From positions 1,402,681 to 1,466,680 of the forward strand of contig NZ_CP006965.1 in the NCBI RefSeq assembly GCF_000517445.1: a stretch of 64,000 bases of DNA. The letters are read 5' to 3'. The translations under genes were made by a program, and so were the position numbers. Under the pieces are notes generated by a model. That model was not told where the DNA came from. It worked only from the letters and a program-made list of their open reading frames with translations, and ran no database searches. How positions within the stretch are numbered: the first letter of the stretch is position 1; the number at the start of each line of letters is the position of its first letter. Of this stretch, positions 1,265 to 29,294 are shown piece by piece. This DNA is from Thermococcus paralvinellae (GTDB lineage Archaea > Methanobacteriota_B > Thermococci > Thermococcales > Thermococcaceae).

Positions 1265-1281
1265 GTTCTTAACAAAAGGTT
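1265..1281. promoter_or_regulatory. SurR-type operator upstream of fdhA
   Basis: The sequence GTTCTTAACAAAAGGTT fits the extended SurR consensus GTTn3AACn5GTT exactly. It sits directly upstream of the minus-strand TATA box CTATAAG (about 1261-1255). That is where SurR is known to act as an activator of hydrogenase genes when elemental sulfur is absent. The site is 124-140 nt before the TTG start, so the leader is about 90 nt. The assignment to SurR is from memory of the Pyrococcus consensus. Confidence 0.7.
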
Positions 1282-1426
1282 GTAATCGTTGGGATATAGC
1301 AAAATAAAATGCTGAGAATCCTTTTTTTAAATTGTTTTGTATAATTTCTAAAAGAGAGTTTAAACAAACACACTTATAAATAAAATTGTTTAACATATTT
1401 GCTAACGTTAAAATAATAGTAAAGTG

Positions 1427-2206
1427 TTAAGTTCTGTTTTCAAATGATATTCTATGTTCACCGCTATATATATTAAACCTTTTTCCTCGAGCAAATCCAA
1501 TCAATGTTATGTTGTATTTCCTTGCAAGCTCGACACCTTTGTCAGTTGGTGGGGACTTGGTTATCACAATAGGCATGCCTGCATTGACAACTTTTTTCAC
1601 CATGCCGTAGGGCATTCTACCACTTGAGGCTAAAATTAACTCACTCAAGTTTAGTCCATTGAGAACTGCATAACCAACTACTTTATCAACGGCATTATGT
1701 CTGCCTATATCCTCACTAAACGCAACTATCTTGCCGTCTTTATCAAAAAGGGCTGCCCAGTGAGTTCCCCCAGTTTTTTTCCACGTTTCTGCAAGCTGAG
1801 TCATAGAGGAGGATATTCTCAAGATAAGCTCAGGATGGACTCTCATTTCTCCCGTTTTTCCCTCGATGACTTTACTCTCCCTAGCTTTATACGGATCCCC
1901 ACAGGGGGTGTGCCTTATAGTCAGCTCACTTCCGAAGCGACCGATATCTGTATCTTTAACCTTTACGTAAATTTTCTTTCCCTCAATCCAGCTGTCAACA
2001 ATCCTCTCGGCTTTCTCATATCCCTCACAAATAACGAAACCAACTCCAAGTTCTCTAAGTTGACTTGGTGAAGCTGGAAGCTCAGCAAGAAACTCTTCAA
2101 ATTCATTATAAACGAGATAAACCTCAAATCTCTCTTCAATGCAGACATAATCCTCAATAGTTTTCAAACCGTTATCCCACTTGAAGATATTTATCTTTTT
2201 TATCAT
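1427..2206 (-). CDS. fdhD: FdhD, formate dehydrogenase accessory sulfurtransferase
   Basis: This 259-residue protein has the FdhD hallmarks THWAALFD, EDIGRHNAVDKVVG, ASSGRMPYGMVKKV and ITKSPPT. FdhD transfers sulfur to the Mo/W-pterin cofactor of formate dehydrogenase and is needed for its activity. E. coli FdhD uses a CxxC pair; here only one cysteine is seen at that place (HTPCGDP, near residue 105), so the sulfur relay may use a single Cys. The start ATG has GGTGG 4 nt upstream, and a TATA-like CTTATATATTC (about 2235-2225) suggests its own promoter in addition to read-through from the hydrogenase gene. It lies upstream of fdhA on the same strand, which supports the role. Confidence 0.92.
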   Translation of the reverse strand: MIKKINIFKWDNGLKTIEDYVCIEERFEVYLVYNEFEEFLAELPASPSQLRELGVGFVICEGYEKAERIVDSWIEGKKIYVKVKDTDIGRFGSELTIRHTPCGDPYKARESKVIEGKTGEMRVHPELILRISSSMTQLAETWKKTGGTHWAALFDKDGKIVAFSEDIGRHNAVDKVVGYAVLNGLNLSELILASSGRMPYGMVKKVVNAGMPIVITKSPPTDKGVELARKYNITLIGFARGKRFNIYSGEHRISFENRT

Positions 2207-2242
2207 TTAACCACCAGAGTTAGAATATATAAGTAGTTTTTT

Positions 2243-3448
2243 TCAATTTTTCTGTATATGCTCCACATGAGTGGCACATGGTATGCATGGGTCAAACAGT
2301 CTAACAGCAGCTTCAGCAGCTTCAACCGTCAATCCCTTAACAGCATTTTCAATCACTGGGATATTAAACATTGTAGGAGTGACTATTTTTAGCCCACTAA
2401 TCTTTCCTTCCTCATCAAGTTCTACATAGTGTAATAAAGTCCCTCTCGGAGCTTCATAAGCTCCAATACCTCTACCAGGTCCAAAGATAATGTTTTGCCT
2501 TCTAAAGGGTTCCTTTATGTTAATATTATTGAAAAGTTCTTTCATCCTTTCAAAGGCTAGCTCTATTTCTAGTATTCTCGCAGCATAGAGCCCAAATAGA
2601 GATATTCCCTTAAAGGGGGTGAGAAGTGTGAGCCTTGCCCTAGGGCCGACTTCAACTGGTTTTCCTTTGTAGAATGCAACCATAACTGTGGCTTCATTCA
2701 CAAGCTTCCTTGGTTCTTCTCTATATTCCCAATAAGGAACAGTTTGAATTTCTTTAAAAGAAATTTTATACTTATCTCCAAAAAATAAGTCCGACGCTAG
2801 AAACTCATTTCTAACCATTTTTGCTCTTAGCTCATCTGCAATTTCTGTGAGATTATCTTCATCCAAGAGAGAATACCTAATATCTTCCCACTCTTTTTTA
2901 ATTCTTGGGAGTTTTGCTTTTAAATGATTCCAGACACTCCATTTTGGCACCCTCGAAATGCCACCTATCGTTAAATAAGGTGGATGAGTTGCTCCTCCTC
3001 CCAATTTAAGTAGATAGTCACTGACTTTATCATACAACCTAATTAGGCAGAGAATTAACTCATTTCTCTTTTCCTTAACAATCATATCTGCACTAACCAT
3101 AAGGAGGAGAAGAATATGCGTCTGAATCCTGTTCACCAAACCCAGCAACTCTCTTACCAATAAAGCGTTTCTTGGGGGAGAAATGCCAACTGCACTCTCT
3201 ATAGCCTCAGCAGCAGCATTTGCATGAGCAACGTGACAAACACCACAAATCCTCATAACAGCTTTAATTGTAAAAAGTGAGTCTTTTCCAATGACTAGTT
3301 TTTCAAAACCCCTTAACGGAGCAGTTGATATAAAAAAAGCATCTTGAACTATGCCATCCTCCTGTTGGAAAACCAGCTTAGCTTCACCCATTATTCTTGT
3401 AATACTTTCAAGGGGTATGTAGTTTGGTGTACTCTTAAATTCATTCAT
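2243..3448 (-). CDS. Second Frh-type NiFe-hydrogenase large subunit
   Basis: The 401-residue protein is a close paralogue of the large subunit at 5005-6186. It keeps both nickel-binding pairs: RICGVC (C68, C71) and DPCIPC (C388, C391) followed by ATH and a seven-residue tail that a maturation protease could remove. It therefore looks catalytically competent. It is the last gene of the frhA-frhG-frhB cluster, but no second small subunit is present. It starts without a clear ribosome site; a T-rich TATA-like stretch about 25 nt upstream (near 3473) suggests a leaderless transcript of its own. Family: F420-reducing hydrogenase alpha (FrhA). Whether it swaps with the first large subunit on the same FrhG is unknown. 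Confidence 0.88.
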   Translation of the reverse strand: MNEFKSTPNYIPLESITRIMGEAKLVFQQEDGIVQDAFFISTAPLRGFEKLVIGKDSLFTIKAVMRICGVCHVAHANAAAEAIESAVGISPPRNALLVRELLGLVNRIQTHILLLLMVSADMIVKEKRNELILCLIRLYDKVSDYLLKLGGGATHPPYLTIGGISRVPKWSVWNHLKAKLPRIKKEWEDIRYSLLDEDNLTEIADELRAKMVRNEFLASDLFFGDKYKISFKEIQTVPYWEYREEPRKLVNEATVMVAFYKGKPVEVGPRARLTLLTPFKGISLFGLYAARILEIELAFERMKELFNNINIKEPFRRQNIIFGPGRGIGAYEAPRGTLLHYVELDEEGKISGLKIVTPTMFNIPVIENAVKGLTVEAAEAAVRLFDPCIPCATHVEHIQKN

Positions 3449-3491
3449 GTCTTAAGATTTTGAAGCTAAAAATAAAAAACTTTCTAAAAAA

Positions 3492-4325
3492 CTAAAGCAA
3501 ATACATCATGTTTTGTTGAGCTCTTGCAAGTTTTTCCCTTGCCTTTTTCAAAACTTCTCCAATTAAATGAGAACCTTCTCTTAGTTCTAAATATCCCTCT
3601 TTCTCTGCATTTTTAATGAGTTCCTCAGCCTTAGGATTCCTCGCTATAAGGAGTGTCCATCCAGGTTCACTCTCTACAAAACCCGCTGAGATGTCGCTCC
3701 ATGTTCCAGTGTAATCTGTACACACCAAACAGCCAGCTTGGAGATAGGAATAAACCTCCTCAATTGGTAAATCAAGCTTTGTGTCATTGTATACTATTTC
3801 AAGGAAATCTTTTTTAAGATGAATATCTTTTATTTGCTCTGCTTTTATCCCGTATTTCATTCTGAGGTAGTTTAGAAAAGCCTCAAAAGCAAATGTTCCC
3901 ATACAGAACAGACTTACTATGTACTTTATTCTTTCACCGAAATCAGTCTCTAATAGAGGAAAATCCCTCATTTGGGCAAAAAACTGTGCCTGACATGGCA
4001 AACATACTAAAGCAACTCTTTTCAAATCTTCTTCCTCAATCTTTGCTTTCATTCTCGCTGCAAACGGGACTATGCTCCATTTGTTTCCTGCCGTTTCTAA
4101 TAACTCCTCTTTATTATGAGCAACAATTGCCTGCCCTTCAAATCCTTTTGTTCTCTTTGCTGTAACAACGCCATCAACTATGCCCTTTTCAAGGGCATAA
4201 GTTAGTAAAGCCGTAACTGCTCCACCACTTGCAACTTTTCTCTTCCTTATCTCTTCGTCCTTGGCCCTTGCTAAATAAACTCCAAAGACAGTCCCTAAAA
4301 GGTTTTCTGATGGTAAACCAATCAT
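3492..4325 (-). CDS. frhB: FrhB-type flavin/Fe-S subunit of F420-like hydrogenase
   Basis: The 277-residue FrhB/FdhB-family protein has the N-terminal SGGAVTALL segment and cysteine clusters LVCLPCQAQ, SLFCMGTF and AGCLVCTDYTGTWSDIS that bind a 4Fe-4S centre and FAD. In methanogens this subunit reduces F420. Thermococcales are not known to make F420, and for Thermococcus onnurineus FrhAGB electron delivery to thioredoxin reductase has been reported (recalled, not checked). Its ATG overlaps the frhG stop (ATGA at 4325-4322), so the two are translationally coupled. A shorter NifB-like or coenzyme-F420 dehydrogenase role is possible, but the context favours hydrogenase. Confidence 0.88.
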   Translation of the reverse strand: MIGLPSENLLGTVFGVYLARAKDEEIRKRKVASGGAVTALLTYALEKGIVDGVVTAKRTKGFEGQAIVAHNKEELLETAGNKWSIVPFAARMKAKIEEEDLKRVALVCLPCQAQFFAQMRDFPLLETDFGERIKYIVSLFCMGTFAFEAFLNYLRMKYGIKAEQIKDIHLKKDFLEIVYNDTKLDLPIEEVYSYLQAGCLVCTDYTGTWSDISAGFVESEPGWTLLIARNPKAEELIKNAEKEGYLELREGSHLIGEVLKKAREKLARAQQNMMYLL

Positions 4326-4999
4326 ATCCTACCCCCCATACAAAGCAGTTGAGATGCACGAGGACATCTCACATAGCACGTTCCACAGCGAATACATTTT
4401 TCAGCTATAAGGTTAGGCCTCTTATCTATCATTTTAATTGCTTGTGTTGGACATGATAGCTCACATGCACCACAGCCAATGCAGAGACCTGTTAAAACGA
4501 TGTCATCAATCAAGTCGAAACCGCTGAGCTTCTTGATATCCGCACAAACTTTGAACAATCTGAGTCTCCTTTCATCACCCGCTATAAAGAACTTGAAGAA
4601 TGATTGGACCATTTGAGGGGTTGGGGGACAACCAGGAATTGAATAATCAACCTTGACAACACTATTTATAGGCTGGAAGTTTCTGTGGTCTGGCCTAGGT
4701 TCTTGCCCACCCCTACAGAACCTTAAAATTCCTCCAAATGTTGCGCATGAACCAAAAGCAACGAGAGTGCTTGCCTTCTCTCTAAGACTTTTTACCTTTT
4801 CAATTATATGAGGTTCATTCATGCAAACTCCACCAGTTATTATGACAATGTCATATTTGTCTCCGGCACAGGTTTTCTTTGCTAAGTATTTCATGTCCAA
4901 ATCAACGAACTCTTGAATATTTGGAAGTGCTCTTAAAATGCTAACATTACAGCCTTCACACCCTCCAATATCAACATGAAGGACCTTCAATTTCTCCAT
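4322..4999 (-). CDS. frhG: FrhG-type NiFe-hydrogenase small subunit with ferredoxin domain
   Basis: This 225-residue subunit binds the proximal 4Fe-4S cluster through GGCEGCN (C14, C17), GSCATFGG and PGCPPTP. Its C-terminal third adds two CxxCxxCxxxCP ferredoxin motifs (CIGCGACELSCP and CIRCGTCYVRCP), giving the three-cluster relay typical of FrhG. I chose the ATG at 4999 because GAGGTGAG lies just upstream; that ribosome site overlaps the end of frhA (stop 5007-5005). It is the only small subunit in a cluster with two large subunits. Confidence 0.91.
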   Translation of the reverse strand: MEKLKVLHVDIGGCEGCNVSILRALPNIQEFVDLDMKYLAKKTCAGDKYDIVIITGGVCMNEPHIIEKVKSLREKASTLVAFGSCATFGGILRFCRGGQEPRPDHRNFQPINSVVKVDYSIPGCPPTPQMVQSFFKFFIAGDERRLRLFKVCADIKKLSGFDLIDDIVLTGLCIGCGACELSCPTQAIKMIDKRPNLIAEKCIRCGTCYVRCPRASQLLCMGGRI

Positions 5000-5004
5000 T
5001 TTAC

Positions 5005-6186
5005 TCACCTCAACTCAACAACGTGGGTTGTACATGGTATACAAGGATCATATAAGCGCATAACAGCCTCTGCAGCTTGAATACTAAGTCCCTCCGCTGC
5101 TTTTTCCATAATTGGGATGTTAAACATCGTCGGAACCACTATCTTAAAGTCTTGAATTCTGCCCTCTTCTCCAAGCTCTACATAGTGGAACAACGTACCC
5201 CTTGGGGCTTCATAAACCCCAACTCCTCTCCCAGGTCCAAAGATTATGTTCTGAGTTCTGAAGGGTTCATTCATATTGATTTGGTCAAGAATTTCTTCCA
5301 GCCTTTCAAGTGCTATTGTTATTTCTTCAATCCTAGCCAAGTGAATACCAAAGAGAGAGTTGTCTCTGAAAGATCTATAAATGGCCATTCTTGCTCTGGG
5401 ACCAACTTCAACCGCTTTTCCTTTATAAAATGCGACCTGTGTTGTAGCCTCTTTTGCTACATCTTCTTTCTCACCTTTGTAGTCCCAGTAAGGAACTGTC
5501 TTCACGGCATCTGGAGAAACATTATATTCATCACCATAGAACATGTGCGAAGCTAGATATTCGGGAGCGAACTTCTTTTCTTTAAGCTCCATAGCAATCT
5601 CAGTTAAGTACCCTTCATCCACTAAATAAGCCATTATCTCGGCCCAGAGTGACTTAAGCTCTGGGAGTCTTGCCTTAAGATTATTGAATACACTCCACTT
5701 TGGAACTCTTAAAAGACCACCAACCGTCAAATAGGGTGGATGTGTTGCAGCACCACCCAGCTTGAGCAAATAATCACTTATCTTTCCATGAAAGGTCATC
5801 AGCTTAAAGATGACTTCCATTCTCTTCTCTTCAATTATGAAGTCTCCCGCCATCATTGCCAATTGAAGAATGTGGCTCTGAATTCTGTTTATCAAGCCAA
5901 GTGCTTCTCTAATTAGTAAACCATTTCTAGGGGGCAAAATTCCTAAAGCATTCTCTATTGCCTCTGCAGTTGCGTTTCCATGTGATGCATGGCAAAGTCC
6001 ACATATTCTCATGACTGCTTCAACAGCAAAGAGAGGATTTTTTCCTATGACTAATTTTTCAAATCCTCTCACTGGAGCAGTAGCAATGAAATTAGCTTGT
6101 TTAACTTCCCCATTTTCGTGATAAAGTACTAACTTAGCCTCACCAGCAATTCTGCAAAGCTCATCTATCTGAAGATACTCGCTCAT
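5005..6186 (-). CDS. frhA: FrhA-type NiFe-hydrogenase large subunit
   Basis: From the ATG at 6186 (GGAGGGA upstream) the protein is 393 residues, the usual FrhA size; a longer upstream reading has no ribosome site. It holds the active-site ligands RICGLC (C62, C65) and DPCIPC (C382, C385), with TTH and a five-residue tail for proteolytic maturation. It is the first gene of the cluster frhA-frhG-frhB-frhA2. Upstream lie a TATA-like CCCTTTTATTTT (about 6255-6243) and a perfect SurR motif at 6263-6279. The enzyme should be cytoplasmic and couple H2 to a flavin-linked acceptor. Confidence 0.92.
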   Translation of the reverse strand: MSEYLQIDELCRIAGEAKLVLYHENGEVKQANFIATAPVRGFEKLVIGKNPLFAVEAVMRICGLCHASHGNATAEAIENALGILPPRNGLLIREALGLINRIQSHILQLAMMAGDFIIEEKRMEVIFKLMTFHGKISDYLLKLGGAATHPPYLTVGGLLRVPKWSVFNNLKARLPELKSLWAEIMAYLVDEGYLTEIAMELKEKKFAPEYLASHMFYGDEYNVSPDAVKTVPYWDYKGEKEDVAKEATTQVAFYKGKAVEVGPRARMAIYRSFRDNSLFGIHLARIEEITIALERLEEILDQINMNEPFRTQNIIFGPGRGVGVYEAPRGTLFHYVELGEEGRIQDFKIVVPTMFNIPIMEKAAEGLSIQAAEAVMRLYDPCIPCTTHVVELR

Positions 6187-6262
6187 TAATATCCCTCCCT
6201 CTCCAAACTTTCTTCTTGTTGTCACTAGGTTATTATGAAAACTAAAATAAAAGGGTTTTCTG

Positions 6263-6279
6263 AACCAAAAGTTTAGAAC
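6263..6279. promoter_or_regulatory. SurR-type operator upstream of frhA
   Basis: Read on the minus strand the site is GTTCTAAACTTTTGGTT, a perfect GTTn3AACn5GTT. It ends about 8-12 nt upstream of the frhA TATA box, the same geometry as at fdhA. This placement suits activation by SurR. Confidence 0.72.
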
Positions 6280-6428
6280 GTAAAAGTTTCGGATCAAAAT
6301 GGCATCATCAGAAAGAAAAATGGCAAATAAACTGGTAGAATATTTTTAAGTGTTTCAAAGAATTCCCTACAATTTATTTTAAATTGTGAGTGCAGTTTTG
6401 CAGTATTCAAGAGCACTATGATGCAAAG

Positions 6429-6477
6429 CTTTATAAAGGCACAAGTATAGTAAGGATGACGCTCTTCTAAGGAGCGT
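6429..6477 (+). promoter_or_regulatory. Promoter and 5'-leader hairpin of TRAM gene
   Basis: A TATA box (GCTTTATAAA, about 6429-6436) is followed by a perfect 6-bp hairpin ACGCTC/GAGCGT with a 7-nt loop (6459-6477). The ribosome site AGGAG comes 14 nt later. The hairpin lies in the predicted leader, so it could control translation or message stability of this RNA-binding protein; that is inference. Confidence 0.5.
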
Positions 6478-6504
6478 TGAAATATTTGAAAGGAGATATT
6501 GAAA

Positions 6505-6732
6505 ATGTATGGAGATAGATTTGGCGGAAATAGAGACAGATTTAGTGGAGTAGCCCCAGTTAAAGTTGGAGAAAGATACACTGTTAAAATCGAAAGTATA
6601 GGAAAAGGCGGAGACGGAATAGCTAGGATTAAGGGCTTTGTTGTGTTTGTTCCAAACACAAAAGTAGGTCAAGAAGTTGAGATCGTAATTAACTCTGTCA
6701 AGCGAAAATTCGCTTTTGGAGAGGTTATTTAA
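6505..6732 (+). CDS. Small TRAM-domain RNA-binding protein
   Basis: This 75-residue protein has a basic, glycine/arginine-rich N-terminus ([11 protein letters not shown]) and then a complete TRAM domain ([27 protein letters not shown] and so on). Stand-alone archaeal TRAM proteins bind RNA and behave as RNA chaperones, some of them cold-induced. The ATG at 6505 is preferred over an in-frame TTG at 6499 because AGGAG (6491-6495) is then 9 nt away rather than 3. The end overlaps the convergent KaiC-like gene by 8 nt. Confidence 0.88.
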
Positions 6733-7462: not shown

Positions 7463-7595
7463 TATTTCCAATATAAATCTGCCAATATATAACCGTTTTC
7501 ATTACTACAAGAGGTTTTTCTATAGTAACATTCGCCAGAAAAGGGCAGTTTCGTCCAATTAACTTTTTAAATTAATATCCTTAAGTTAGTTCGCA

Positions 7596-9231: not shown

Positions 9232-9245
9232 ATGAGGGATTCACG

Positions 9246-15477: not shown

Positions 15478-18400
15478 TCACTTTAAAAAGTAGTCTAAAG
15501 TCCCCTTCTTTGGTTTGGATTTTGCTTCGGATTTCTTTTCCTCTGATTTGTCAGAATCTTTAATATTTTTCAACAATGGAAGCTCAACCCCAAAATGCTT
15601 GTAGATTCTCTCCAGAACTTTAACACCAATGCCTTCAACGGCTAAAAGCTCACTCGGCTTAGCCTTTACAATGTCATTAACGGTTTTAAAGCCCGCATTG
15701 TATAAAGCCCTTGCTCTCTTCCTTCCAATCATTGGAAGCTCTACCAGTTCCAACAGCTCTTCTCTAACGCCATGCTTAAGTCTCAGATGAAGCCTCCTGA
15801 GGTATTTAATCGTCTCACTGCTTGCATTGAGAACCTTCGCAAGCTCAATGAGAGAATACATTAACCAGTCTGCAAGCTCAATAATCCTATACAAGTCTCC
15901 AGTATCAATTCCATAAGCTTCAATCAGCTTTGCTTCACTCACTTCATTGATCCAATCCAAGAGCAGCTTGGCCGTCTTGATTTCACTCAAAAACTTTTGA
16001 AATTCGTAGTCCTCCCAGTAAGGAATTGAGCGGTACAAATAATCCTCCATCTCATAAGCATAATCGAGATAATCCTCCTGCTCCTTCCTCTTTATGCTGA
16101 GCGTTCCCATATCTGGAGTTGATGCCAAAAGCTGGAAGATGCCGAGAGGATTTGGATTTCCCTCTATCTGGGGCAGAGCGTCTTTGAATTTTTTAGCTGT
16201 GAGAGGGTCAAGATAGAGCTGGGAAGTTCTTATACCAAAGGGCAAGGCAATGAAGCGATCATTTAAGTCAATATCTATGAACTCGTTCTCAAGGAGGAAG
16301 TAGACTATGCTCTTCGCTTTGCCTTCAAGAATTTCCAAGTCTTTTCTCTGGTGATAATAGAAGGTCTTCTCCAAAAACCCTATCAACTCGCGGAAGCTTT
16401 CAACTCCAAAGTTTGTAATTAATGCTAAAACTTGGCTTCTAAAAGCGGCATCGTTGGAGAGCATCGAGAACAGCTTTTCAGGCTTTCCAAATATATATTT
16501 CTCCATGAGTTCTTCTAGCTTTTCTGTTTTTGCAACGATAATAGCCTCGCCTTCTTTGTCGTATTTAGGCCTTCCAGCCCTTCCCATCATCTGCTGGATT
16601 TCAAGAACAGGAATATCAGACCAGCCAAAAGTTGAGTACCTCTTTGTATCGCGGATTATAACCCTAAATGAGGGAAGATTTACACCTGCTGAATTATGAA
16701 CAATGAAACCAACGCTGTAGCTTTCATTATCTTCAACTTCAAGATTAAAGACTTCTCCCTTATATTCCTGCTCTTCAATTCTCCGAACTTTCAGAAGGAG
16801 ATATCCATTCCAAATCTTATTGACTTGATAAACTCTATTTCCTAGCTTTGGCAAGGGATAACCTAATTCTTCAAGAAGTGAGTAGTAGCTTTTTCCGCTT
16901 ATTCTTACTTCATACAATCCTTTTCTGCTCCATCTTTTATCCTTTCTATTAAAATAACGAACACTAGAGACATACCCCAATGAAGCAAGTAAAAGTTGAA
17001 GTTGATAAGCAAGATGAGGAGAAACTGTAGAGTAGGTTATATAATTTGATCTGTCCCTCGCATTTATCCTTACATATCCATCGCCTTCTATTAATCCCTT
17101 TAATAACCCAAGTTTTACTTCCCTGTTTCCATTAAATAGGATTACTTCAGGTATTCTTTTATTATCTGCATGAGCCCCTATATTTTTCCTCAGCCATTCA
17201 GCAAATCTTTTGTTGCAGAATCTAATTCTACGCCTATTTCTCTCTTTATCTTCTACAACAATCTTAGCTTTTGGGAAATACTTAGATATCGTCTGAATTA
17301 GAAAACTGGTTATATCATCTTCATATGAAGCAATGTCAAAAAATATAGCGCCTGTTTTTGAAGTAGATCCCTCCGCAATCCATAAACCAATTAAACGTGC
17401 TGTTTCAAAATTCAATGGTAAAAATTCCGGAGTTTTCTCAAGTGCTGGATGATCCCTATTAGTAACTCCAAATTGATTAACTACTTTGGATGGTTTTCTG
17501 AGAGGTATTTTATCAACGGTAACAACAAGTTTAGGGATTGGTTGGAGTAGCATATATGAAATTTTTGGGTCATTATTCTGTTCTATGAGTTCCTTCAAAT
17601 CTCTTGCAGTAACCCAAAATGGCCCTTCATACTCCCACCAAATTACTTGACGACCATTAGAATAGTGAGATTTGTGCCGAATCTGCTTTATAACAAAAAC
17701 TTTATGTTCAGGCGTTATTTTTATAGGGACTGTTCCAAAAGCTTTGATCACAAGCAATTTACCTCTATACTGCCTCTTCAATGGCGTAATAACTTGCTTA
17801 AATTCTCCCGTATGGGTTAAAACAAAGTCTCCTCTTTTAAGTTCAGAAACCTTTTTCACACCATCTCTTGTTATAACCAGAGTATCTGGGTGCATACATA
17901 ATGTCGGCGTCGCAGTTAAGACTTTTATCAATCCTTCCCTAAATGCATCCTCAATCAAAGTTCTCTCCGCTCTTCCTAATCCAGCATGATGAAATGCAGC
18001 ACCGTTAACTAAAACCCCCTTAAGCTTATCATTGGTTGGATTGCTCTCCAATGACTCAGCCAGCTCTTTTAATCTTCTCGCCTCAGGTTTTGTTAAAAGT
18101 CGTCTAACTTTCTTGCCAAGCATTGCCGCTTCTTTTTCCGCTGACCTCCTAGTGTTTACAAAAACCAGAGATTGCTTGCCCCTTTTGACAGCATCAATTA
18201 CGAGAGAGTCCCACTGGGCTGGAAACTTATCAATTTTACCATCTTCCCAAATCAGCTGACCGTGAGCAAAGACACCTTTCCTAAGTTTCACAGGGCGCCA
18301 CTCGCTAACCACAAGCTTTGCGTTCAGCCATTCAGCTAACTCCTCAGCATTTCCAACGGTTGCGCTCAATCCCAAAATTTGGGCTTTGCCAAGCATATGT

Positions 18401-18900
18401 GATAATATCATCTCTAAAGTTGCTCCTCTATCATAAGAGCCGAGGAGGTGAATTTCATCCGCAACGATGAGCTTTACATCTTTAATCCATCTCGATTTAT
18501 GCCTCAAAAGAGAATCGAATTTCTCTGATGTTGCTATGATTATGTCATATCTTCCAAGCCATTCTTCACTGCTGTCATAATCTCCAGTCGTTACAGCAAC
18601 CCTAACCCCCAAGTCCTCCCATGTTTTGAACTCTCTGTATTTTTCTTCAGCCAAAGCCTTAAGAGGGACTAAATAAACTGCCTTCCCTCCTTCAGTAAAG
18701 AGCTTGTGGAGCATCACAATTTCAGCGACGAGGGTTTTTCCGCTCGCTGTTGGAATTGCCAAAAGCAAATTCTCTCCATTGAGAACACCGCTTTTCAAAG
18801 CCTCAGCTTGGGGGGGATACAACTCGCTAATGCCACGCTCTTTAATTTTCCTGACTATCCTTTCATCCACACCAAATCTTGAAAGCTCATCAACCTGCAT
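15478..18900 (-). CDS. hel308: Hel308 DNA helicase precursor with intein
   Basis: The 1140-residue precursor is Ski2-like superfamily 2 helicase Hel308 interrupted by a 402-residue intein; the spliced protein is 738 residues, normal for archaeal Hel308. Motifs (precursor numbering): PTASGKT 50-56, DEIH 148-151, SAT 179-181, then HHAGL and TATPTL just before the intein at residue 334. Afterwards come SAGVNLP, QMMGRAGRP, and near the C-terminus a helix-hairpin-helix-like GVGVKVLERI ratchet/HhH region and a lysine-rich tail ending in the PIP-like TLDYFLK. It unwinds lagging strands at stalled forks. The ATG at 18900 lies about 28 nt from a TATA box, so the message is leaderless. Confidence 0.95.
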   Translation of the reverse strand: MQVDELSRFGVDERIVRKIKERGISELYPPQAEALKSGVLNGENLLLAIPTASGKTLVAEIVMLHKLFTEGGKAVYLVPLKALAEEKYREFKTWEDLGVRVAVTTGDYDSSEEWLGRYDIIIATSEKFDSLLRHKSRWIKDVKLIVADEIHLLGSYDRGATLEMILSHMLGKAQILGLSATVGNAEELAEWLNAKLVVSEWRPVKLRKGVFAHGQLIWEDGKIDKFPAQWDSLVIDAVKRGKQSLVFVNTRRSAEKEAAMLGKKVRRLLTKPEARRLKELAESLESNPTNDKLKGVLVNGAAFHHAGLGRAERTLIEDAFREGLIKVLTATPTLCMHPDTLVITRDGVKKVSELKRGDFVLTHTGEFKQVITPLKRQYRGKLLVIKAFGTVPIKITPEHKVFVIKQIRHKSHYSNGRQVIWWEYEGPFWVTARDLKELIEQNNDPKISYMLLQPIPKLVVTVDKIPLRKPSKVVNQFGVTNRDHPALEKTPEFLPLNFETARLIGLWIAEGSTSKTGAIFFDIASYEDDITSFLIQTISKYFPKAKIVVEDKERNRRRIRFCNKRFAEWLRKNIGAHADNKRIPEVILFNGNREVKLGLLKGLIEGDGYVRINARDRSNYITYSTVSPHLAYQLQLLLASLGYVSSVRYFNRKDKRWSRKGLYEVRISGKSYYSLLEELGYPLPKLGNRVYQVNKIWNGYLLLKVRRIEEQEYKGEVFNLEVEDNESYSVGFIVHNSAGVNLPSFRVIIRDTKRYSTFGWSDIPVLEIQQMMGRAGRPKYDKEGEAIIVAKTEKLEELMEKYIFGKPEKLFSMLSNDAAFRSQVLALITNFGVESFRELIGFLEKTFYYHQRKDLEILEGKAKSIVYFLLENEFIDIDLNDRFIALPFGIRTSQLYLDPLTAKKFKDALPQIEGNPNPLGIFQLLASTPDMGTLSIKRKEQEDYLDYAYEMEDYLYRSIPYWEDYEFQKFLSEIKTAKLLLDWINEVSEAKLIEAYGIDTGDLYRIIELADWLMYSLIELAKVLNASSETIKYLRRLHLRLKHGVREELLELVELPMIGRKRARALYNAGFKTVNDIVKAKPSELLAVEGIGVKVLERIYKHFGVELPLLKNIKDSDKSEEKKSEAKSKPKKGTLDYFLK
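16693..17898 (-). mobile_element. Intein with LAGLIDADG homing endonuclease in Hel308
   Basis: The 402-residue intein begins with Cys (CMHPDTLVITRDG) and ends with VHN, followed by Ser of the C-extein (SAGVNLP). Block B TPEHKVF is at residues 62-68. Two LAGLIDADG-type motifs, LIGLWIAEG (169-177) and LKGLIEGDGY (266-275), indicate a complete, possibly active homing endonuclease. It sits in a conserved helicase motif, which is a recurring Hel308 intein site in archaea. No stop or frameshift is present. Confidence 0.95.
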
Positions 18901-18921
18901 TGCATATCCACTAAGGGAAAA

Positions 18922-18932
18922 GCGTTTATAGA
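18922..18932. promoter_or_regulatory. Shared TATA box firing in both directions
   Basis: One element reads GTTTATAGAC on the plus strand and GTCTATAAAC on the minus strand. The ATG of hel308 is 28 nt away on one side and the ATG of a 56-residue ORF is 25 nt away on the other. A-rich BRE-like sequence flanks both sides. Both genes would be leaderless. Confidence 0.55.
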
Positions 18933-18952
18933 CTTTTGGTCTAGCTGATAGC

Positions 18953-19123
18953 ATGAAAGTTGAGGTACCGTATTTAATCTTTGAGGTAAATGGAAAAGAG
19001 TACATGATTGATGCTTACTTTTCAAAGAAGCTTGAGCGGATTGAAAAACCTGTAAATACTGTTTTAGTTTTTAAATTTCCTACGAAAAACTTAAATGAGA
19101 TGAAATGCAAGTACCATCTGTAA
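18953..19123 (+). CDS. 56-residue hypothetical protein
   Basis: A short frame (MKVEVPYLIFEVNGKEYMID to KCKYHL) starts 25 nt after the TATA box shared with hel308 and has no ribosome site, as expected for a leaderless gene. It looks like a small beta-strand-rich protein with basic residues. No family is recognised. The spacing, codon use and position before the next ribosome site make it plausible, but it is unproven. Confidence 0.55.
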   Translation: MKVEVPYLIFEVNGKEYMIDAYFSKKLERIEKPVNTVLVFKFPTKNLNEMKCKYHL

Positions 19124-20395: not shown

Positions 20396-21157
20396 GTGAT
20401 AACAGAAGGAGAAAAGGTTCTATTAGTTGATCCTAGGGGAAAGAGATATTTAATAACTGTGAAAAGAGACGAATTTCACACAGATTTAGGAAAGATAAAC
20501 CTTGAGGATATAATTGGAAAGAATTTCGGAGATATTGTTGAATCTCACAAAGGGTATAAGTTCAAAATTCTAAAACCCAGAATAGTTGATTTCATTGATA
20601 AGATGAAGCGTGGTCCTCAGATAATCCATCCAAAAGATGCTGCTCAAATTGTGGCATTTGCTGGGATTTCTCCAGGAGATTTTATAGTTGAAGCAGGAGT
20701 TGGAAGTGGCGCACTAACTCTTTTCTTGGCAAATATAGTTGGACCTAACGGAAGGATAGTCAGTTATGAAGTTAGAGAAGATTTTGCAAAGCTTGCATGG
20801 AAAAACATTGAATGGGCAGGTTTTGATGATAGAGTTACTATAAAGCTCAAAAGCATTTACGACGGAATAGACGAGAAAGACGTTGATCACATAATTCTCG
20901 ACTTGCCCCAGCCAGAGAGAGTTGTTGAGTATGCTATAGAAGCATTAAAACCCGGAGGATATTTTGTCGCTTATACCCCATGTATAAATCAAGTTGCTCG
21001 TCTTTATGAAAAGCTGAGAGAATTTAAGGAGCATTTTATGAGGCCTAAAACTATTGAATGTTTGGTTAGAGAGCAGGAAGTAAAGAGAGAGTGCATAAGG
21101 CCGAGAACTAGAATGATTGCACACACAGGCTATATCACATTTGCAAGGAAGATTTAA
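20396..21157 (+). CDS. trmI: tRNA (adenine-N1)-methyltransferase TrmI (A57/A58)
   Basis: The 253-residue enzyme starts at GTG 20396 with GGTGAG upstream. It has the small N-terminal beta domain and a class I methyltransferase fold with the SAM loop VEAGVGSGALTLFLA (near residues 100-114) and the catalytic motif LDLPQPERV. Archaeal TrmI methylates A57 and A58 of the tRNA T-loop. Four cysteines near the end (CINQVARL, ECLVREQEVKREC) match those that form disulfides in the Pyrococcus enzyme (recalled). A C/D sRNA runs antisense immediately downstream. Confidence 0.93.
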   Translation: MITEGEKVLLVDPRGKRYLITVKRDEFHTDLGKINLEDIIGKNFGDIVESHKGYKFKILKPRIVDFIDKMKRGPQIIHPKDAAQIVAFAGISPGDFIVEAGVGSGALTLFLANIVGPNGRIVSYEVREDFAKLAWKNIEWAGFDDRVTIKLKSIYDGIDEKDVDHIILDLPQPERVVEYAIEALKPGGYFVAYTPCINQVARLYEKLREFKEHFMRPKTIECLVREQEVKRECIRPRTRMIAHTGYITFARKI

Positions 21158-21214
21158 TCAGCAGAGAGGGAGGTTCATCATCACCTCAGCGTACCGTGAG
21201 GCTCATCCCCAATT
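21155..21214 (-). ncRNA. C/D box sRNA (2'-O-methylation guide)
   Basis: On the minus strand the order is complete: C box GGGATGA (21209-21203, one change from RTGATGA), 13-nt guide GCCTCACGGTACG (21202-21190), D' box CTGA (21189-21186), 4-nt spacer, C' box ATGATGA (21181-21175), 13-nt guide ACCTCCCTCTCTG (21174-21162), D box CTGA (21161-21158). Spacing fits archaeal dual-guide sRNAs. The D' guide is complementary to GUACCGUGAGG, a nearly universal 23S rRNA sequence; by the +5 rule it would direct methylation of the first C of ACCG. The target of the second guide is not recognised. Exact ends are estimates. Confidence 0.82.
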
Positions 21215-21281
21215 CTGAAATTTAGACTCCTCTTTTTAGGATTTTTGGTTAAGTGTTGCTGTTCTCAAATTTTTTTCGATG

Positions 21282-21316
21282 TTGTTAACCTTTGGTTAAC
21301 AATACTTTTATAAATA
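21282..21316 (+). promoter_or_regulatory. nfnAB promoter with SurR-type operator
   Basis: GTTGTTAACCTTTGGTT (21281-21297) is a perfect GTTn3AACn5GTT. It is also the core of a larger perfect dyad with arms TTGTTAACC and GGTTAACAA (21282-21290 and 21294-21302). The TATA box TTTTATAAATA (21306-21316) follows 4 nt later. SurR is known to control NADPH- and sulfur-linked redox genes in Pyrococcus. Confidence 0.78.
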
Positions 21317-21376
21317 CTTAATGTTCAAAACCTTTGTAAATGCTCAAGAATGAGCACATGTACGGAGGTGTTCATT

Positions 21377-23685
<2,309 letters not shown>

Positions 23686-23764
23686 CTTTCTCTTTTAATT
23701 CCTTGTTATCTATCACTCCAGAAGTTGACGGTAGATTTATGAAGACAATATATGTAATAAGGAC

Positions 23765-23822: not shown

Positions 23823-24161
23823 CTCCTTTTCCTCTTCTTCAATCTCCTCAAGGATATGTTCAAATTTCTTGAAGTCCTCGCTTTGTGCAACGAGAGTTAT
23901 GAACTCGTCAATCTCCTCCTTCTCGAGGAATGAACCAACTAAGAGCCTTCCAGTGTAACGGTTGTTCTTAATCTCCCAGAACATGTAGAATTCAGGGAAT
24001 TTGTTCTTGATTTTTCTATAAGCAACTCCATACTTAGAATCCTTAAGAGGATTCTGCTCAAGGAAGAAATGATTTTCAGAGAGCTCAATCTTATGGAGAA
24101 TAGCTCCACGCTTAGTTCTCACAAGCTTAACCTTAACATCCCATTCCTTTAGGGTTTTCAT
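23820..24161 (-). CDS. Hypothetical protein upstream-linked to gcvH
   Basis: The 113-residue protein starts at ATG 24161, 6 nt after GGAGGTG. It is a mixed alpha/beta protein (WDVKVKLVRTKRGAILHKIE and FPEFYMFWEIKNNRYTGRLL) with an acidic tail (EEIEEEEKE). No family is recognised. It follows gcvH on the same strand with a 46-nt gap, so it may belong to the same transcription unit. Confidence 0.75.
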   Translation of the reverse strand: MKTLKEWDVKVKLVRTKRGAILHKIELSENHFFLEQNPLKDSKYGVAYRKIKNKFPEFYMFWEIKNNRYTGRLLVGSFLEKEEIDEFITLVAQSEDFKKFEHILEEIEEEEKE

Positions 24162-24207
24162 AAATAGCACCTCCAACGAAATTATGAAAAAACAAACCCA
24201 AACAAAA

Positions 24208-24612
24208 TCAGAGACTCTTCAAATACTCAGCATACTGCTCGGCAGTCATGAGATTATTTAAGTCCTCCTCAAGGTTTGATGGCTTAATCTTCGCAATCCA
24301 TGCTCCATATGGATCCTCGTTGATTTTTTCTGGAGAATCCTCAAGCTCTCCATTAACTTCAACAATTTCACCGCTGACTGGAGCGTAAACTTCGCTCACA
24401 GCCTTGACGCTCTCAATTTCACAGAGAACATCACCCTGTGAGACCTCTTTTCCAACTTCTGGAAGCTCAACGTATGCAACATCGCCAAGCTCTTTTTGAG
24501 CATAATCGCTTATTCCAACAAGAACAGTTCCATCATCTAAAACTTGAACCCATTCATGCTCCTTTGTGTAGTATAGTCCTTCCTTAACCTTGTATTCGCC
24601 TACCTCAATCAT
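24208..24612 (-). CDS. gcvH: Glycine cleavage system H protein
   Basis: The 134-residue lipoyl-carrier protein carries the lipoylation motif EIESVKAVSEVYAP with Lys70. The start HEWV block (YTKEHEWVQV) and the GDVAYVELPEVGKEV segment are typical. It shuttles the aminomethyl group in glycine cleavage, or serves as a lipoate carrier. The other gcv genes are not in this window. The ATG at 24612 has GGTGG 5-6 nt upstream. Confidence 0.94.
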   Translation of the reverse strand: MIEVGEYKVKEGLYYTKEHEWVQVLDDGTVLVGISDYAQKELGDVAYVELPEVGKEVSQGDVLCEIESVKAVSEVYAPVSGEIVEVNGELEDSPEKINEDPYGAWIAKIKPSNLEEDLNNLMTAEQYAEYLKSL

Positions 24613-24669
24613 GAGAACCACCAGAGTGTTTTACGGCTGAAAAACATTTAAACCTTTCTACATTTTTGG

Positions 24670-25542
24670 TTATCCTCTCCTAGTACCGCCATAAATAATT
24701 CCAGCCACTATTAAAGCAAGGCCGATTATTGTTGAAATCAAAATCTTCTCCCCCACTGCAAAGTGAATTATAATCAGAGAGATGAACGGGGTTAGGTAAA
24801 CAAGGTTTGCTATTTGGGCTGTTGTTTCTGATAATTCCAGCGCTTTAAGCCACAAGAGAAAAGTAATGCCCATTTCAAAGGCACCTATGTAGACTGCACC
24901 AGCTAAGCCTTTGAGGGGAGGGGATGTAAGACCATGAACGAGGAGTACAAAAACTAAAGTGTAAATAAAACCAAAGACAAAGTTAAAGAACATTTTAATC
25001 ACTGCCTCTCTTTCATCTTTCAGATTCAAAATCCAATAAGTTGCCCAAATCAGTGCGCTCATTAAACCCAAGAAAGCTCCGTAAGGATTAGCAAACTTAA
25101 GAGCTGTTATATTTCCCCGCGTAGAAATTATCAAGACCCCACAAAAGCTGATGAGAACACCTAAAAAGTTTCTAAGCCTAACTTTTTGTTTCAGTAGTGG
25201 AATTGAAAGCAAAGTCAGCATTATTGGCCAAGTATAGTTCAAAGCCTGAGCTTCCTGAGCTGGGAGGAGGGAATACGCTTTGAAAAGGACGAGATAGTAG
25301 AGGAAAGGGTTGATTAATCCGAGAACTGCCGAGTATCTGTGAGCAGACAAGTCTTTCAAGGCATGAACTTTTCCCTGAACTACAGTCAAAATAGAAAATA
25401 TGAGAAGAGATGCTAGTGAGGCATAGAGCAGAAGATTTGCATAGTCAAGATATCTAAGGGAGAGCTTAAAAGCTGAGGCAACAGTTGACCACAGCAACAC
25501 CGCAAGGAAGGCATAGAGATAAGCTGATTTTTGAGTGCTCAT
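24670..25542 (-). CDS. EamA/DMT-superfamily transporter
   Basis: This 290-residue protein has ten hydrophobic segments in two EamA repeats (roughly residues 8-130 and 150-285). The first repeat holds LLWSTVASAFKLSLRY and the second GLMSALIWATYWIL. Substrate unknown; DMT proteins export amino acids or other metabolites. I chose the ATG at 25542 because a TATA box (CCTTATAAC, about 25575-25567) lies 26-28 nt before it, indicating a leaderless message; more upstream starts would extend a non-hydrophobic tail past the promoter. Confidence 0.88.
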   Translation of the reverse strand: MSTQKSAYLYAFLAVLLWSTVASAFKLSLRYLDYANLLLYASLASLLIFSILTVVQGKVHALKDLSAHRYSAVLGLINPFLYYLVLFKAYSLLPAQEAQALNYTWPIMLTLLSIPLLKQKVRLRNFLGVLISFCGVLIISTRGNITALKFANPYGAFLGLMSALIWATYWILNLKDEREAVIKMFFNFVFGFIYTLVFVLLVHGLTSPPLKGLAGAVYIGAFEMGITFLLWLKALELSETTAQIANLVYLTPFISLIIIHFAVGEKILISTIIGLALIVAGIIYGGTRRG

Positions 25543-25696
25543 GCATGTTAATGCGTAGCGCAGAGTTATAAGGATTATCCGATGCTTATTCGACATTAAG
25601 AGAGCAAAACACACACTTAATCAAACTTTCCTAAAGTTTGGTAGAGAAAGGTTTAAATATGCATTTCTACACATTTATGAGTAAGAGGTGGCAAAA

Positions 25697-26290
25697 ATGA
25701 TGCTCATATTAGAAGCTTACTTTAAGAATTATCCGGCAAGAAGGAAAGTCGCAGAGTTTTTATTTGAGAACGGGCTGAGTGTTAAAAACGGAAAGATATA
25801 TCTAAGAGACGTAGAGGTTCCAATAAGTGAATTATCAAGGGTCATCGGAGTAAATAGAAAGATAATCTACCATACTATTGAATACATCGAGAAAACCTAC
25901 CCATTAAAGCTTATTTTCGAGCGATTGACTCCACTACCAAGCCTAATTGATGTTGCTCCAATAATGGGCTGGGAAGTTCTTGAGATAGAACTTGAGAAAG
26001 ACCTTTATTCCCAAGCAATTTCAAGCGTTCTCCAGATTCTCTCAGGTAACAACGTTCCAATAATGGAGATTTTCAGCAGAAATTTGAGACAAGAAGACAG
26101 CAAAGCATACATAGTTATAGATGGGACTCTGCCAGTTGACGTATTTGTAAAAATCAAAGATATACCAGGATTCAAAAAGCTCATTCTCCACACGCCAGAG
26201 AAGAGAAAAGAAAACTTTGTATGTGCCTACTGTGAAGTTCGCTACTGTCCAAAAAAAGTGGTTTTAGAAAAGATTGGTTCAAAGGCTTAA
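25697..26290 (+). CDS. COG2150-type regulator of amino acid metabolism with ACT domain
   Basis: The 197-residue protein has an N-terminal winged-helix-like part (residues 1-75: [20 protein letters not shown] and [20 protein letters not shown]), an ACT-like part (about 85-165) and a C-terminal cysteine cluster [10 protein letters not shown]. This layout fits the archaeal family of predicted amino-acid regulators. Target genes are unknown. GAGGTGG lies 6 nt before the ATG at 25697, and a TATA box TTTAAATATG is at about 25652. The stop overlaps the convergent acylphosphatase gene. Confidence 0.82.
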
Positions 26291-26562
26291 CCAACAACTT
26301 TAAATCCTTTTTCTCCTTTTGGATCTTCCCATTTTATCTCAACTCTTGTGACTCTTGCAAATGGAGGCCCTTGATGTGCCCAGCCGATTAATGCCTCAAC
26401 CCTTTCCCTTTCTCCTTCTATTACAGCTTCAACACTCCCATCGGGTAAGTTCCTTACCCACCCATGCACTCCAAGCTTTCTTGCCTCTCTTTGCATGCTC
26501 CATCTAAAGCCAACACCCTGAACTCTGCCATAAATTCTCAGGTGTGCTCTTACAATTTCCAT
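26287..26562 (-). CDS. acyP: Acylphosphatase
   Basis: The 91-residue enzyme has the full acylphosphatase signature: [21 protein letters not shown] with catalytic Arg20, and [17 protein letters not shown] with Asn38. It hydrolyses acyl phosphates such as acetyl phosphate or 1,3-bisphosphoglycerate. The ATG at 26562 follows GGGGG; an upstream in-frame TTG is part of that site. Confidence 0.94.
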
Positions 26563-26634
26563 CTCAACCCCCAATAAAAATAACTCAACGTAAGATTTAA
26601 GTTTATCTTGTAGGAGGTTATAAATGGTGGTAGT

Positions 26635-26949
26635 ATGAGTGAGATGATACTTGTTTATACAACATTTCCAGACTGGGAAAGCGCGGAAAGGATTGTCAAA
26701 GAGCTTTTAGAGAAGAAACTCATAGCGTGTGCTAATCTAAGAGAGCACAAAGCATTCTACTGGTGGAAAGGAAAAATAGAGGAAGATAACGAAATCGGCG
26801 CAATTCTTAAGACAAAAGTTGAGCTTTGGGACGAGCTTAAAAAGGAACTCAAGGAAAAGCACCCCTACACAGTTCCAGCAATAATCAGAATTGATGTTGA
26901 TGCCGTAAATAAGGAATACCTCAAGTGGCTGTTAGAGGTTACAAAATGA
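26635..26949 (+). CDS. cutA: CutA divalent-cation tolerance protein
   Basis: The 104-residue protein is a typical Cut[51 protein letters not shown] and [13 protein letters not shown]. CutA forms very heat-stable trimers and is linked to copper tolerance, though its biochemical role is unclear. GGTGG precedes the ATG. The final TGA overlaps the ATG of the next gene. Confidence 0.94.
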
Positions 26950-27533
26950 TTAGAAAGGTAAAACCGCAAATTAGAGTCATCGGTTTCGATGACGGTACTT
27001 TTTCTTTTAAATCCAAGATTGAAAGAGACAAAACTATTCTGATTGGAGTCATCATGAAGGGATCGCAGGATGTTGTTGGAATTTTGTCAAGATGGATCGA
27101 AGTTGATGGAATGGATGTAACAGAAAAGATGATTGATGCCGTTGTAAACTCCCGCTTTAAAGATCTTAGAGTCATAATGCTGAAGGGCATAACCTATGCT
27201 GGTTTTAATATTGTTGACATAGAAAAGCTCAGCAGAGAGACGGGTTTACCCGTGATTGTTGTTATTAGGAAGAAACCGGATTTAAGAGCCATGGAGGATG
27301 CCTTGAGAAAGCATTTCTCTGATGCTGAAGAGAGAATTAGGCTGCTGAGGAAGGGCGGAGAAATAAGAGAGTTAATACCCGAGAGGCTGTTCTATCAAAC
27401 CTATGGAATTAAACCAAAAATAGCAGAGGAAATAATTAAAATAACCCAAAAAAGCTCTCTAATTCCAGAGCCTCTCAGATTAGCCCACATGATAGCTTCA
27501 GCAGTTATGACTGGGGAGTCGAAGAAGGAGTAG
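26946..27533 (+). CDS. DUF99/UPF0215 family protein
   Basis: The 195-residue protein is of the archaeal DUF99 (UPF0215) family: [10 protein letters not shown] at the start, [15 protein letters not shown], and [29 protein letters not shown]. The fold is related to endonuclease V, but the function has not been shown. The ATG overlaps the cutA stop (ATGA), with AGAGGTT upstream, so the pair is coupled. It is the last protein gene before the 7S RNA. Confidence 0.85.
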
Positions 27534-27628
27534 ATCCTTTTCTCTTCATTGGTTGAATTTTTGTTCTAAATAGTCCTTCAATGGCTTCTTCTTAGTAAGG
27601 TTGTTGAAATCTTCTAGGATACCAAACC

Positions 27629-27637
27629 TTTATATAA
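27629..27637 (+). promoter_or_regulatory. TATA box of the 7S RNA gene
   Basis: TTTATATAA preceded by the BRE-like AAACC lies 25-26 nt upstream of the first base of the 7S RNA. This is the standard archaeal distance. Confidence 0.8.
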
Positions 27638-27658
27638 CCTTCATATCTATTTTTAAAT

Positions 27659-27975
27659 GGCGGCGGACTAGGCCGGGGGGTTCGGCGTCCCCTGTAACCC
27701 GAAACCGTCGATATGCGGGGGCCGAAGCCCGAGGGGCGGTTCCTGAATCCAGCGGCAGAAGCCGGGGTAAACAATGAGCCCTCGTCCCACGGGGCCGGCG
27801 GTGGGCGAGGCGGAGCTGAAGGGCTCCGCTAACGCCCTTTGCCCGCCGAACCCCGCAAGGCCCGGAAGGGAGCAGCGGTAGGCGGGACGTTCGGCGCTCG
27901 TGGGGTAGCGGGGGCGAGGGAGTCCCGGTGGAAGTCGCTGGAGGAGGGTTCCCACCCTCGGGCGTGTCCGCCGCC
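27659..27975 (+). ncRNA. ffs: Signal recognition particle 7S RNA
   Basis: A roughly 317-nt GC-rich block stands out from the AT-rich surroundings. The ends pair perfectly (GGCGGCGGAC at 27659-27668 with GTCCGCCGCC at 27966-27975), forming helix 1. The SRP54-binding helix 8 shows the diagnostic GCAAGGCCCGGAAGGGAGCAG (about 27855-27875). Length and both features match archaeal 7S RNA. It scaffolds SRP54 and SRP19 (encoded at 19387-19698) for membrane targeting. Long open frames across it on the minus strand are artefacts of GC content. Confidence 0.96.
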
Positions 27976-27994
27976 GTAAGAATTCTCTTGCTTT

Positions 27995-28372
27995 ACAATT
28001 AACGAGGCAAAACTTATTAAACAGTGAACCCCTTTTAGCACTTTATTGCAATTGATATCTATGCAAGAAGGCCAATTTCAAGCACAAGATTGGCAGTTAT
28101 TCGAGGCTAGAAATTAAATCAGTTGCTTTAGGAGGTGTCTATGATCTAGCAAAAGTTCTGGACGTTGACCTCATCAGAATTGGAGAAATAACGACATGGT
28201 AAGATGCAGTTGAATTCCTAATAGCTAGTGCAAAGGCTATACAAATTGGGACTGCTGTCTCGTTGAGAGAATTTAAAGTTTTTAAAGAATCAGCGAAGGG
28301 ATAGAGAGATTTTTAAAGGAAGAATAGTCTAATGGCATAGACGAGATAATAGGAATAGCTTTGGAGGGATAA
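27995..28372 (+). pseudogene. Decayed 3' half of dihydroorotate dehydrogenase gene (pyrD)
   Basis: Conceptual translation in shifting frames gives AIDIYARRPISST, then KIGSYSRLEIKSVALGGVYD and LAKVLDVDLIRIGEITTW, a stop, then DAVEFLIASAKAIQIGTAVS, more stops, and finally [12 protein letters not shown] before TAA at 28370-28372. This follows the order of PyrD catalytic-subunit sequence from mid-protein to C-terminus. At least two frameshifts and several stops are present, and the 5' half is missing. The remnant fills the gap between 7S RNA and queC; the queC ribosome site (GGAGGGA) lies in its last codons. Confidence 0.85.
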
Positions 28373-28374
28373 AA

Positions 28375-29094
28375 ATGAAAAGAGCAGTTGTCTTGTTTAG
28401 TGGTGGTTTGGACTCAACAGCTTGCCTATACTGGGCAAAGAAAAATTACGATGAAGTCATTATGCTCACTATAAACTATGGCAGCAATGAGGAAAAAGCA
28501 ACAAACAAAGTAGCAGAATTCTTCTCAAAAGAGCTGAACGTTCCACTTAAAATTATTAAACTCGACTTTTTAGAAGAGTTCTCCAAGCTTAGAGGGACTA
28601 CATTAGTTGGAGGAGAAACGCCAAAAGTCACAGCAAAGGAACTGGAAAACTTAGAGTACGCACAGGAAACAGCTAAAAGTGTCTGGGTTCCAGCAAGAAA
28701 TGTTGTGTTAATTTCCATAGCTGCTTCACTTTTAGATGCCTTAGGAGGGGGAGAGATAATAGTCGGCTTCAATGCAGAGGAAGGAGTAACGTTTCCTGAT
28801 AACACCCCAGAATTCGTTGAAAAAATGAACGAGATGCTGAAATATGGAACACTCAGTGATGTCAAAGTTGTTGCACCACTGATAAACCTTGATAAAAAGG
28901 GTATTGCAAAGCTTTTGAAAGAGCTAAATGCAAAGTATGAATACTCAAATTCATGTTACATGCCCAAAGGGTTTACAGAGGATGGAAAGCCAATTCACTG
29001 CGGAGAATGTGAGAGCTGCGTAAGGAGACACCGTGGACTAATCGAAGGGATTGGGGAAGACAAGACAGTTTATGCCATTGAGCCTAAGATTTGA
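28375..29094 (+). CDS. queC: 7-cyano-7-deazaguanine synthase QueC
   Basis: The 239-residue ATP-pyrophosphatase has the N-terminal PP-loop [12 protein letters not shown], the [15 protein letters not shown] helix and a C-terminal zinc site (Cys in SNSCYMP and HCGECESC). It converts 7-carboxy-7-deazaguanine to preQ0, precursor of archaeosine in tRNA. GGAGGGA precedes the ATG. Its ribosome site is embedded in the end of the pyrD remnant, so it may once have been co-transcribed with pyrD. Confidence 0.94.
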
Positions 29095-29161
29095 ATGCCC
29101 TCTTCTTCTGTTTTTTTAATATTTACGAAACTTGAAAAGGTTAACAAAACTATTTACAAAC

Positions 29162-29177
29162 GCAAGTATTTACTTGC
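29162..29177. promoter_or_regulatory. Perfect 16-bp palindrome upstream of Lrp-like regulator
   Basis: GCAAGTATTTACTTGC has 7-bp arms and a TT centre. It lies 170-190 nt before the next start codon and about 75 nt upstream of the SurR-type site. It is more likely a binding site for a dimeric regulator than a terminator, since no T-run follows. Confidence 0.4.
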
Positions 29178-29251
29178 ACAGTTCAAGGCATACAACTCAA
29201 TTTACAAAAAAGGCATAACAAAGCTTTATTTTGCAATATTTCAAATATTTT

Positions 29252-29294
29252 AACCTTTTGTTAAAAACTAAGCTGTAAGAAAAGAGTTTTATAC
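29252..29294 (+). promoter_or_regulatory. Promoter of Lrp-like regulator with SurR-type operator
   Basis: Read on the minus strand, 29268-29252 is GTTTTTAACAAAAGGTT, a perfect GTTn3AACn5GTT that differs at one position from the fdhA site. The TATA box TTTTATAC (29287-29294) follows 18 nt downstream. Confidence 0.68.

Follow-up and report, generated by a model that had tools for sequence, protein, structure and literature searches.

Gene content of the window

The window, that is, the whole stretch of 64,000 nucleotides of Thermococcus paralvinellae DNA that was analysed, carries on the minus strand the N-terminal part of fdhA (2..1144; TIGR01591 of NCBIfam, E=1.2e-142, partial), encoding the formate dehydrogenase alpha subunit of formate hydrogenlyase (fhl). 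The gene leaves the window, and to its left Fe-S and antiporter/hydrogenase-type genes continue the cluster. It is followed by fdhD (1427..2206, minus strand; PF02634, E=1.3e-59) and by the frh cluster, also on the minus strand, in which two frhA-like large subunits (2243-3448 and 5005-6186) flank frhG (4322..5008; PF01058 plus Fer4) and frhB (3492..4325; PF04432/PF04422). The first gene of the frh operon, frhA1 (5005..6186), matches the NCBIfam frhA model with E=3.1e-88, and the second large subunit (2243..3448), which is ~61% identical to frhA1, matches it with E=1.1e-74, both below the curated cutoff. Two frhA-like matches per genome were observed only in this genome (G000) and in G088, G089 and G090.

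On the plus strand we find nfnA (21350..22243; NF004862, E=7.4e-99), whose true start is likely the GTG at 21377, then nfnB (22240..23685; TIGR01316, E=1.6e-211), and a gene for an Lrp/AsnC-type regulator (29349..29819), here called lrp, with matches to PF01037 (3.3e-8) and PF01022 (4.2e-7) that are both above the gathering scores. The Lrp-like protein, of 156 aa, combines an ArsR-type HTH with an AsnC ligand domain, its best-scoring HTH being of the ArsR type and not the classical AsnC HTH. The window also holds a C/D-box sRNA, sR42 (RF01127), at 21156-21213 on the minus strand, which overlaps the end of the gene preceding nfn, an archaeal SRP RNA at 27661-27973 (Rfam RF01857), and a large intein-bearing helicase at 15478-19005 with Hint/intein and LAGLIDADG domains (Pfam).

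Conservation and architecture of the SurR sites

We found exactly four perfect occurrences of the long SurR motif GTTn3AACn5GTT in the 64-kb window, in the promoters of fdhA (1265..1281, plus strand), frhA (6263..6279, minus strand), nfnA (21281..21297, plus strand) and lrp (29252..29268, minus strand), which reproduces the coordinates and strands of the initial annotation. Its observation of adjacent TATA boxes is likewise borne out by reading of the sequence, with a TATA-like box 8-18 bp downstream of every one of the four motifs: TTTTAAAG at fdhA (1239..1246, minus strand; 18 bp from the SurR site), TTTTATTT at frhA (6245..6252, minus strand; 10 bp), TTTTATAAA at nfn (21306..21314, plus strand; 8 bp) and TTTTATAC at lrp (29287..29294, plus strand; 18 bp). 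The nfn TATA box is conserved, and GTTTTAA is conserved in the fhl promoters.

Across ortholog sets that comprise the best-scoring loci and not every genome, the long site is kept upstream of frhA in 24/29 cases, at -72 to -93, and upstream of nfnA in 28/30, and the fdhA upstream regions contain the long site in 19/29 and the short form in 24/29; the distance is near-constant for each of the three genes. The reversed control gave a single match across the orthologous upstream regions of all three genes. The site is missing upstream of some fdhA homologs and of five frhA homologs that are divergent (60-62% identity); for the distant fdhA homologs this agrees with published groups lacking SurR sites. 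For lrp, the promoter was read in three genomes (G000, G089 and G090), each of which has a perfect site.

SurR itself is encoded in the genome (NCBIfam SurR, E=2.5e-120, 400 bits against a cutoff of 250). Its gene is divergent from that of Pdo, with an exact site in between, and further exact sites are found before a CoA-disulfide reductase (Nsr-type), antiporter operons and hypF and at the ShyB/NfnI spacer. In Pyrococcus/Thermococcus, the SurR regulon (Lipscomb 2009, 2017; Yang 2010, all through papers citing them) has the same motif and likewise a SurR gene adjoining that of Pdo. Its sites are placed in the same way: at promoters of hydrogenase type they precede BRE/TATA, and at repressed promoters they lie close to the start or overlap it. 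The interpretation of the motifs as SurR sites is upheld by the SurR gene, the site architecture and the cross-genus conservation at frhA, nfnA and fdhA.

The sites of fdhA, frhA and lrp lie upstream of the TATA box only, and nfnA has sites on both sides of it. The second nfnA site, GTTCAAAAC (21323..21331, plus strand), is of the short form and follows the TATA box; most orthologs have it between -25 and -27. The conservation of this short downstream site suggests that nfn is probably repressed by SurR, not co-activated with the other genes. Moalic 2021 tabulates SurR motifs of T. piezophilus (PMC8595942, Table 2): frh has a long site, at 71 bp, Nfn I also has a long site, and Nfn II/Xfn has a pair of short sites, at 44 and 72 bp. 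The Nfn II/Xfn spacing matches several of the nfn orthologs analysed here, and the spacing from the probable GTG start likewise matches Xfn, from which we infer that the nfn of the window is of the Xfn type. It differs from the T. piezophilus Xfn (PMC8595942) in that the upstream site, in the window and in close relatives, is a perfect long motif.

An inverted repeat in the fhl promoters

Alignment of fhl promoters revealed an inverted repeat upstream of the SurR site, which in the window reads TGTTTA...TATACAAA (1336..1366, minus strand) and is a candidate EnfR-type operator. Its conserved form, TTTGTTTAC-N14-GTATACAAA, is almost confined to formate/hydrogenase promoters, occurs in 15/17 aligned fhl promoters and starts 72-90 bp upstream of the SurR box. 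When the spacing was allowed to vary, the repeat had 16 exact matches in 94 genomes against 5 for the reversed control, and coordinate comparison placed 10 of the 16 at fdhA promoters. With the spacing fixed at N14, the 94 genomes contained 7 perfect matches, six in fhl promoters and one in a HydB/formate-dehydrogenase-type spacer of G090. This last repeat (G090:C5:58321-58352; L197/L216) has a HydB-type hydrogenase gene on one side and, on the other, a formate-dehydrogenase-type operon in divergent orientation, and it adjoins an imperfect SurR box. In G057, a membrane-protein gene stands between the promoter and fdhA, and the repeat and the SurR box are found together upstream of that gene.

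EnfR (TON_1525) is a Tfx family protein of T. onnurineus with the minimal site AATCTTTTTGTTTACATT; it shifts the promoters of TON_1563 (fdhA) and TON_0537 (SulfI beta), and mfh2 is 21.5-fold down in the EnfR mutant (PMC10570040). The minimal site contains the left arm of the repeat, TTTGTTTAC, a core that is present in several fhl promoters, the fdhA promoter of the window having TTTGTTTAA. Since the minimal-site core lies inside the fhl repeat and EnfR binds both promoter classes, shifting those of fdhA and SulfI beta (PMC10570040), we propose the repeat as a candidate EnfR site on fhl. The full published EnfR palindrome was not seen in the fhl promoters that were looked at, and the half-sites and spacing of the repeat differ from those of the published codh operator of EnfR (PMC10570040).

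The fhl promoter might on this basis be chiefly under EnfR control through TTTGTTTAC-N14-GTATACAAA, with SurR secondary. Such control would fit the prevalence of the repeat among aligned fhl promoters, the placement of all fixed-spacing matches at fhl or at the HydB/formate-dehydrogenase-type spacer, the core shared with the minimal site, and the published promoter shifts and mfh2 decrease (PMC10570040). However, the published codh palindrome has other half-sites (PMC10570040) and the spacing of the repeat in the window is not 14, and we consider a chief role of EnfR possible rather than probable.

Homologous upstream regions of fdhA and the Lrp-like regulator gene

The upstream region of fdhA (1235..1423, minus strand) is homologous to that of lrp (29112..29298, plus strand). 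Their local alignment, of ~190 bp, has a score of 60, compared with at most 22 in 500 shuffles and 12-16 for other promoter pairs. This alignment rules out counting the four sites of the window as independent matches, the fdhA and lrp sites being homologous copies. In the T. paralvinellae genome, a 40-bp block that includes the SurR site (with at most 3 mismatches) is found only in the fdhA and lrp promoters, and likewise the upstream box TATACAANNCAATTTAAAAAAAG. Across the order, the 40-bp block is restricted to four genomes, all of one genus; in G088 it was found at fdhA only, and a contig end truncates the lrp gene of that genome. Of the inverted repeat, the lrp copy retains only a degenerate form, recognised by sequence reading as AGTATTTAC-N14-GCATACAAC (29165..29196, plus strand). 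Other genera have the fdhA version of the promoter but lack the lrp version, so that the likelier direction of copying would be from fdhA to lrp.

The Lrp-like gene is a second copy of an order-wide regulator. Close copies (84-89% identity) were found only in G088, G089 and G090. In these genomes frhA and fdhA likewise have close matches, whereas three further genomes examined from the genus lack close frhA/fdhA matches as well as a close Lrp-like copy. A more distant copy (about 60-68%) is present in nearly every genome of the order, and in the tree a long branch of their own unites the close copies. The block made up of the fhl-type promoter and the lrp-like gene (29095..29815, plus strand) is absent from G087 and G092, relatives without frh, in which ~12 bp separate queC from the THUMP gene, as against 0.72 kb in the window.

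Regarding the other Lrp-like copies, the order-wide copy of T. paralvinellae (G000:C1:1871495-1871958, L058) is frameshifted near its end by an apparent 5-base tandem duplication (ATTGA), either real or a sequence error, and is intact in relatives. We do not claim autoregulation through TTTACAAA, which occurs in promoters of the order-wide copies in genera g1, g5 and g6, but in only 1 of the 8 listed g4 promoters, and in g3 on the other strand only. The other second Lrp-like copies, in G083/G084, were searched for SurR promoters and no site was found.

As the entire ~190-bp region was copied, the lrp SurR site would have required no selection to arrive and could be a passive passenger of the fhl promoter, of no regulatory importance. 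Yet the two copies of the T. paralvinellae genome have 16/17 positions of the SurR box in common and 21/24 of the next 24 bp, whereas the aligned remainder is ~43% identical upstream and ~38% downstream, and the three genomes in which the site was read all have it in perfect form, despite a difference of 11% between the proteins. A passive passenger is in our judgement quite improbable, and we prefer to read the lrp site as a SurR operator acquired with the copied promoter.

Frequency of the motif in the window and in the genomes

In the window, the chance expectation for GTTn3AACn5GTT is 0.40 (SD 0.68) and at least four matches were reached in 0/100 dinucleotide shuffles, while the short GTTn3AAC alone displays no clear excess (22 vs 15.6). 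At the whole-genome level (1.96 Mb) the bare long motif is found 25 times and the reversed pattern 27 times, and thus the genome-wide enrichment that the initial annotation led us to look for did not appear. The non-coding share of the bare motif, 16/25, does not differ significantly from the 12/27 of the reversed control (Fisher p = 0.18), one of whose matches overlaps the SurR/Pdo site. Since the bare motif is not enriched, the case for the sites is based on their conservation in orthologous promoters and on a strict form, GTTn3AACNWWWGGTT, derived from the sites of the T. paralvinellae genome, which in the 93 other genomes of the order has 817 matches against 49 for the control, a 17-fold enrichment. 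That AT-rich sequence matched the motif four times by mere coincidence, as the equal genome counts of the bare motif and its control would allow, has a negligible probability in view of the site positions kept in orthologous promoters across genera, the enrichment of the strict form and the failure of any window shuffle to attain four.

A model of SurR regulation at the four promoters

Taken as a whole, we consider it probable that the four motifs are SurR operators, through which frh, fhl and lrp would be activated and nfn repressed, lrp having been recruited by promoter copying. Without sulfur, reduced SurR would be positioned just upstream of BRE/TATA at frh, fhl (fdhA) and the Lrp/AsnC-like gene and would recruit the transcription machinery there; in the presence of sulfur, SurR would be oxidised and leave the DNA, and frh, fhl and lrp expression would drop. 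At the Xfn-type nfn, SurR would also occupy the second site downstream of TATA and probably block transcription. Copying of the whole fhl upstream region in front of the Lrp-like gene may have brought that gene into the regulon, with the promoter and lrp block gained between queC and the THUMP-domain gene.

Several elements of this model are in agreement with the literature. For the 'Group 1' Thermococci, with which the window shares an identical frh-fhl gene order and promoters, Holden & Sistu 2023 (PMC10025317) describe SurR sites at frh, fhl, nfd and mbh and propose SurR activation and a Frh-TrxR-Pdo-SurR loop. The fhl of T. paralvinellae is treated as SurR-regulated in PMC11959275, and Frh and Fdh2 proteins decrease on sulfur in T. 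onnurineus (PMC4463584). The addition of formate dehydrogenase and the Frh cluster to the regulon, presented in the initial annotation as new, was therefore already available (PMC10025317, section 8.2; PMC8595942, Table 2; PMC11959275), and a single co-directional regulon of four promoters is not sustained, as the nfn/Xfn promoter has the architecture of a repressed one and PMC8595942 places Nfn under negative control by SurR. The initial annotation also added a second regulator, which stands as a new member as far as the open-licence literature shows, with the qualification that its site is copied from the fdhA promoter and not independent. Compared with the SurR regulon known from the open-licence literature on Pyrococcus/Thermococcus, what is added here is an Lrp/AsnC-like regulator whose gene has a copied fhl promoter in front of it; the accessible part of PMC10025317 mentions neither the Lrp-like gene, nor the promoter copy, nor the inverted repeat. 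Within the open-licence literature, the Lrp-like gene is apparently a new member of the SurR regulon, which on the evidence of promoter homology would have entered through the copied promoter.

With the fhl upstream region, including the SurR box and the inverted repeat, copied in front of its gene, the Lrp-like protein would be co-produced with fhl. It might then be a SurR-driven partner regulator that acts back on fhl or related formate genes, a role that we regard as rather unlikely; if true, an Lrp-like feed-forward loop could supply the formate response, the mechanism of which Holden & Sistu (PMC10025317) call undetermined.

As SurR control of fhl and frh is already accepted, little is gained from the original claim. 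For the question of how fhl is controlled beyond sulfur, and of where EnfR acts on it, the inverted repeat provides a concrete site that can be mutated. The recruitment suggested for the Lrp-like gene, a regulator that would have joined a redox regulon of archaea through a copied promoter, would be a clear example of network growth.
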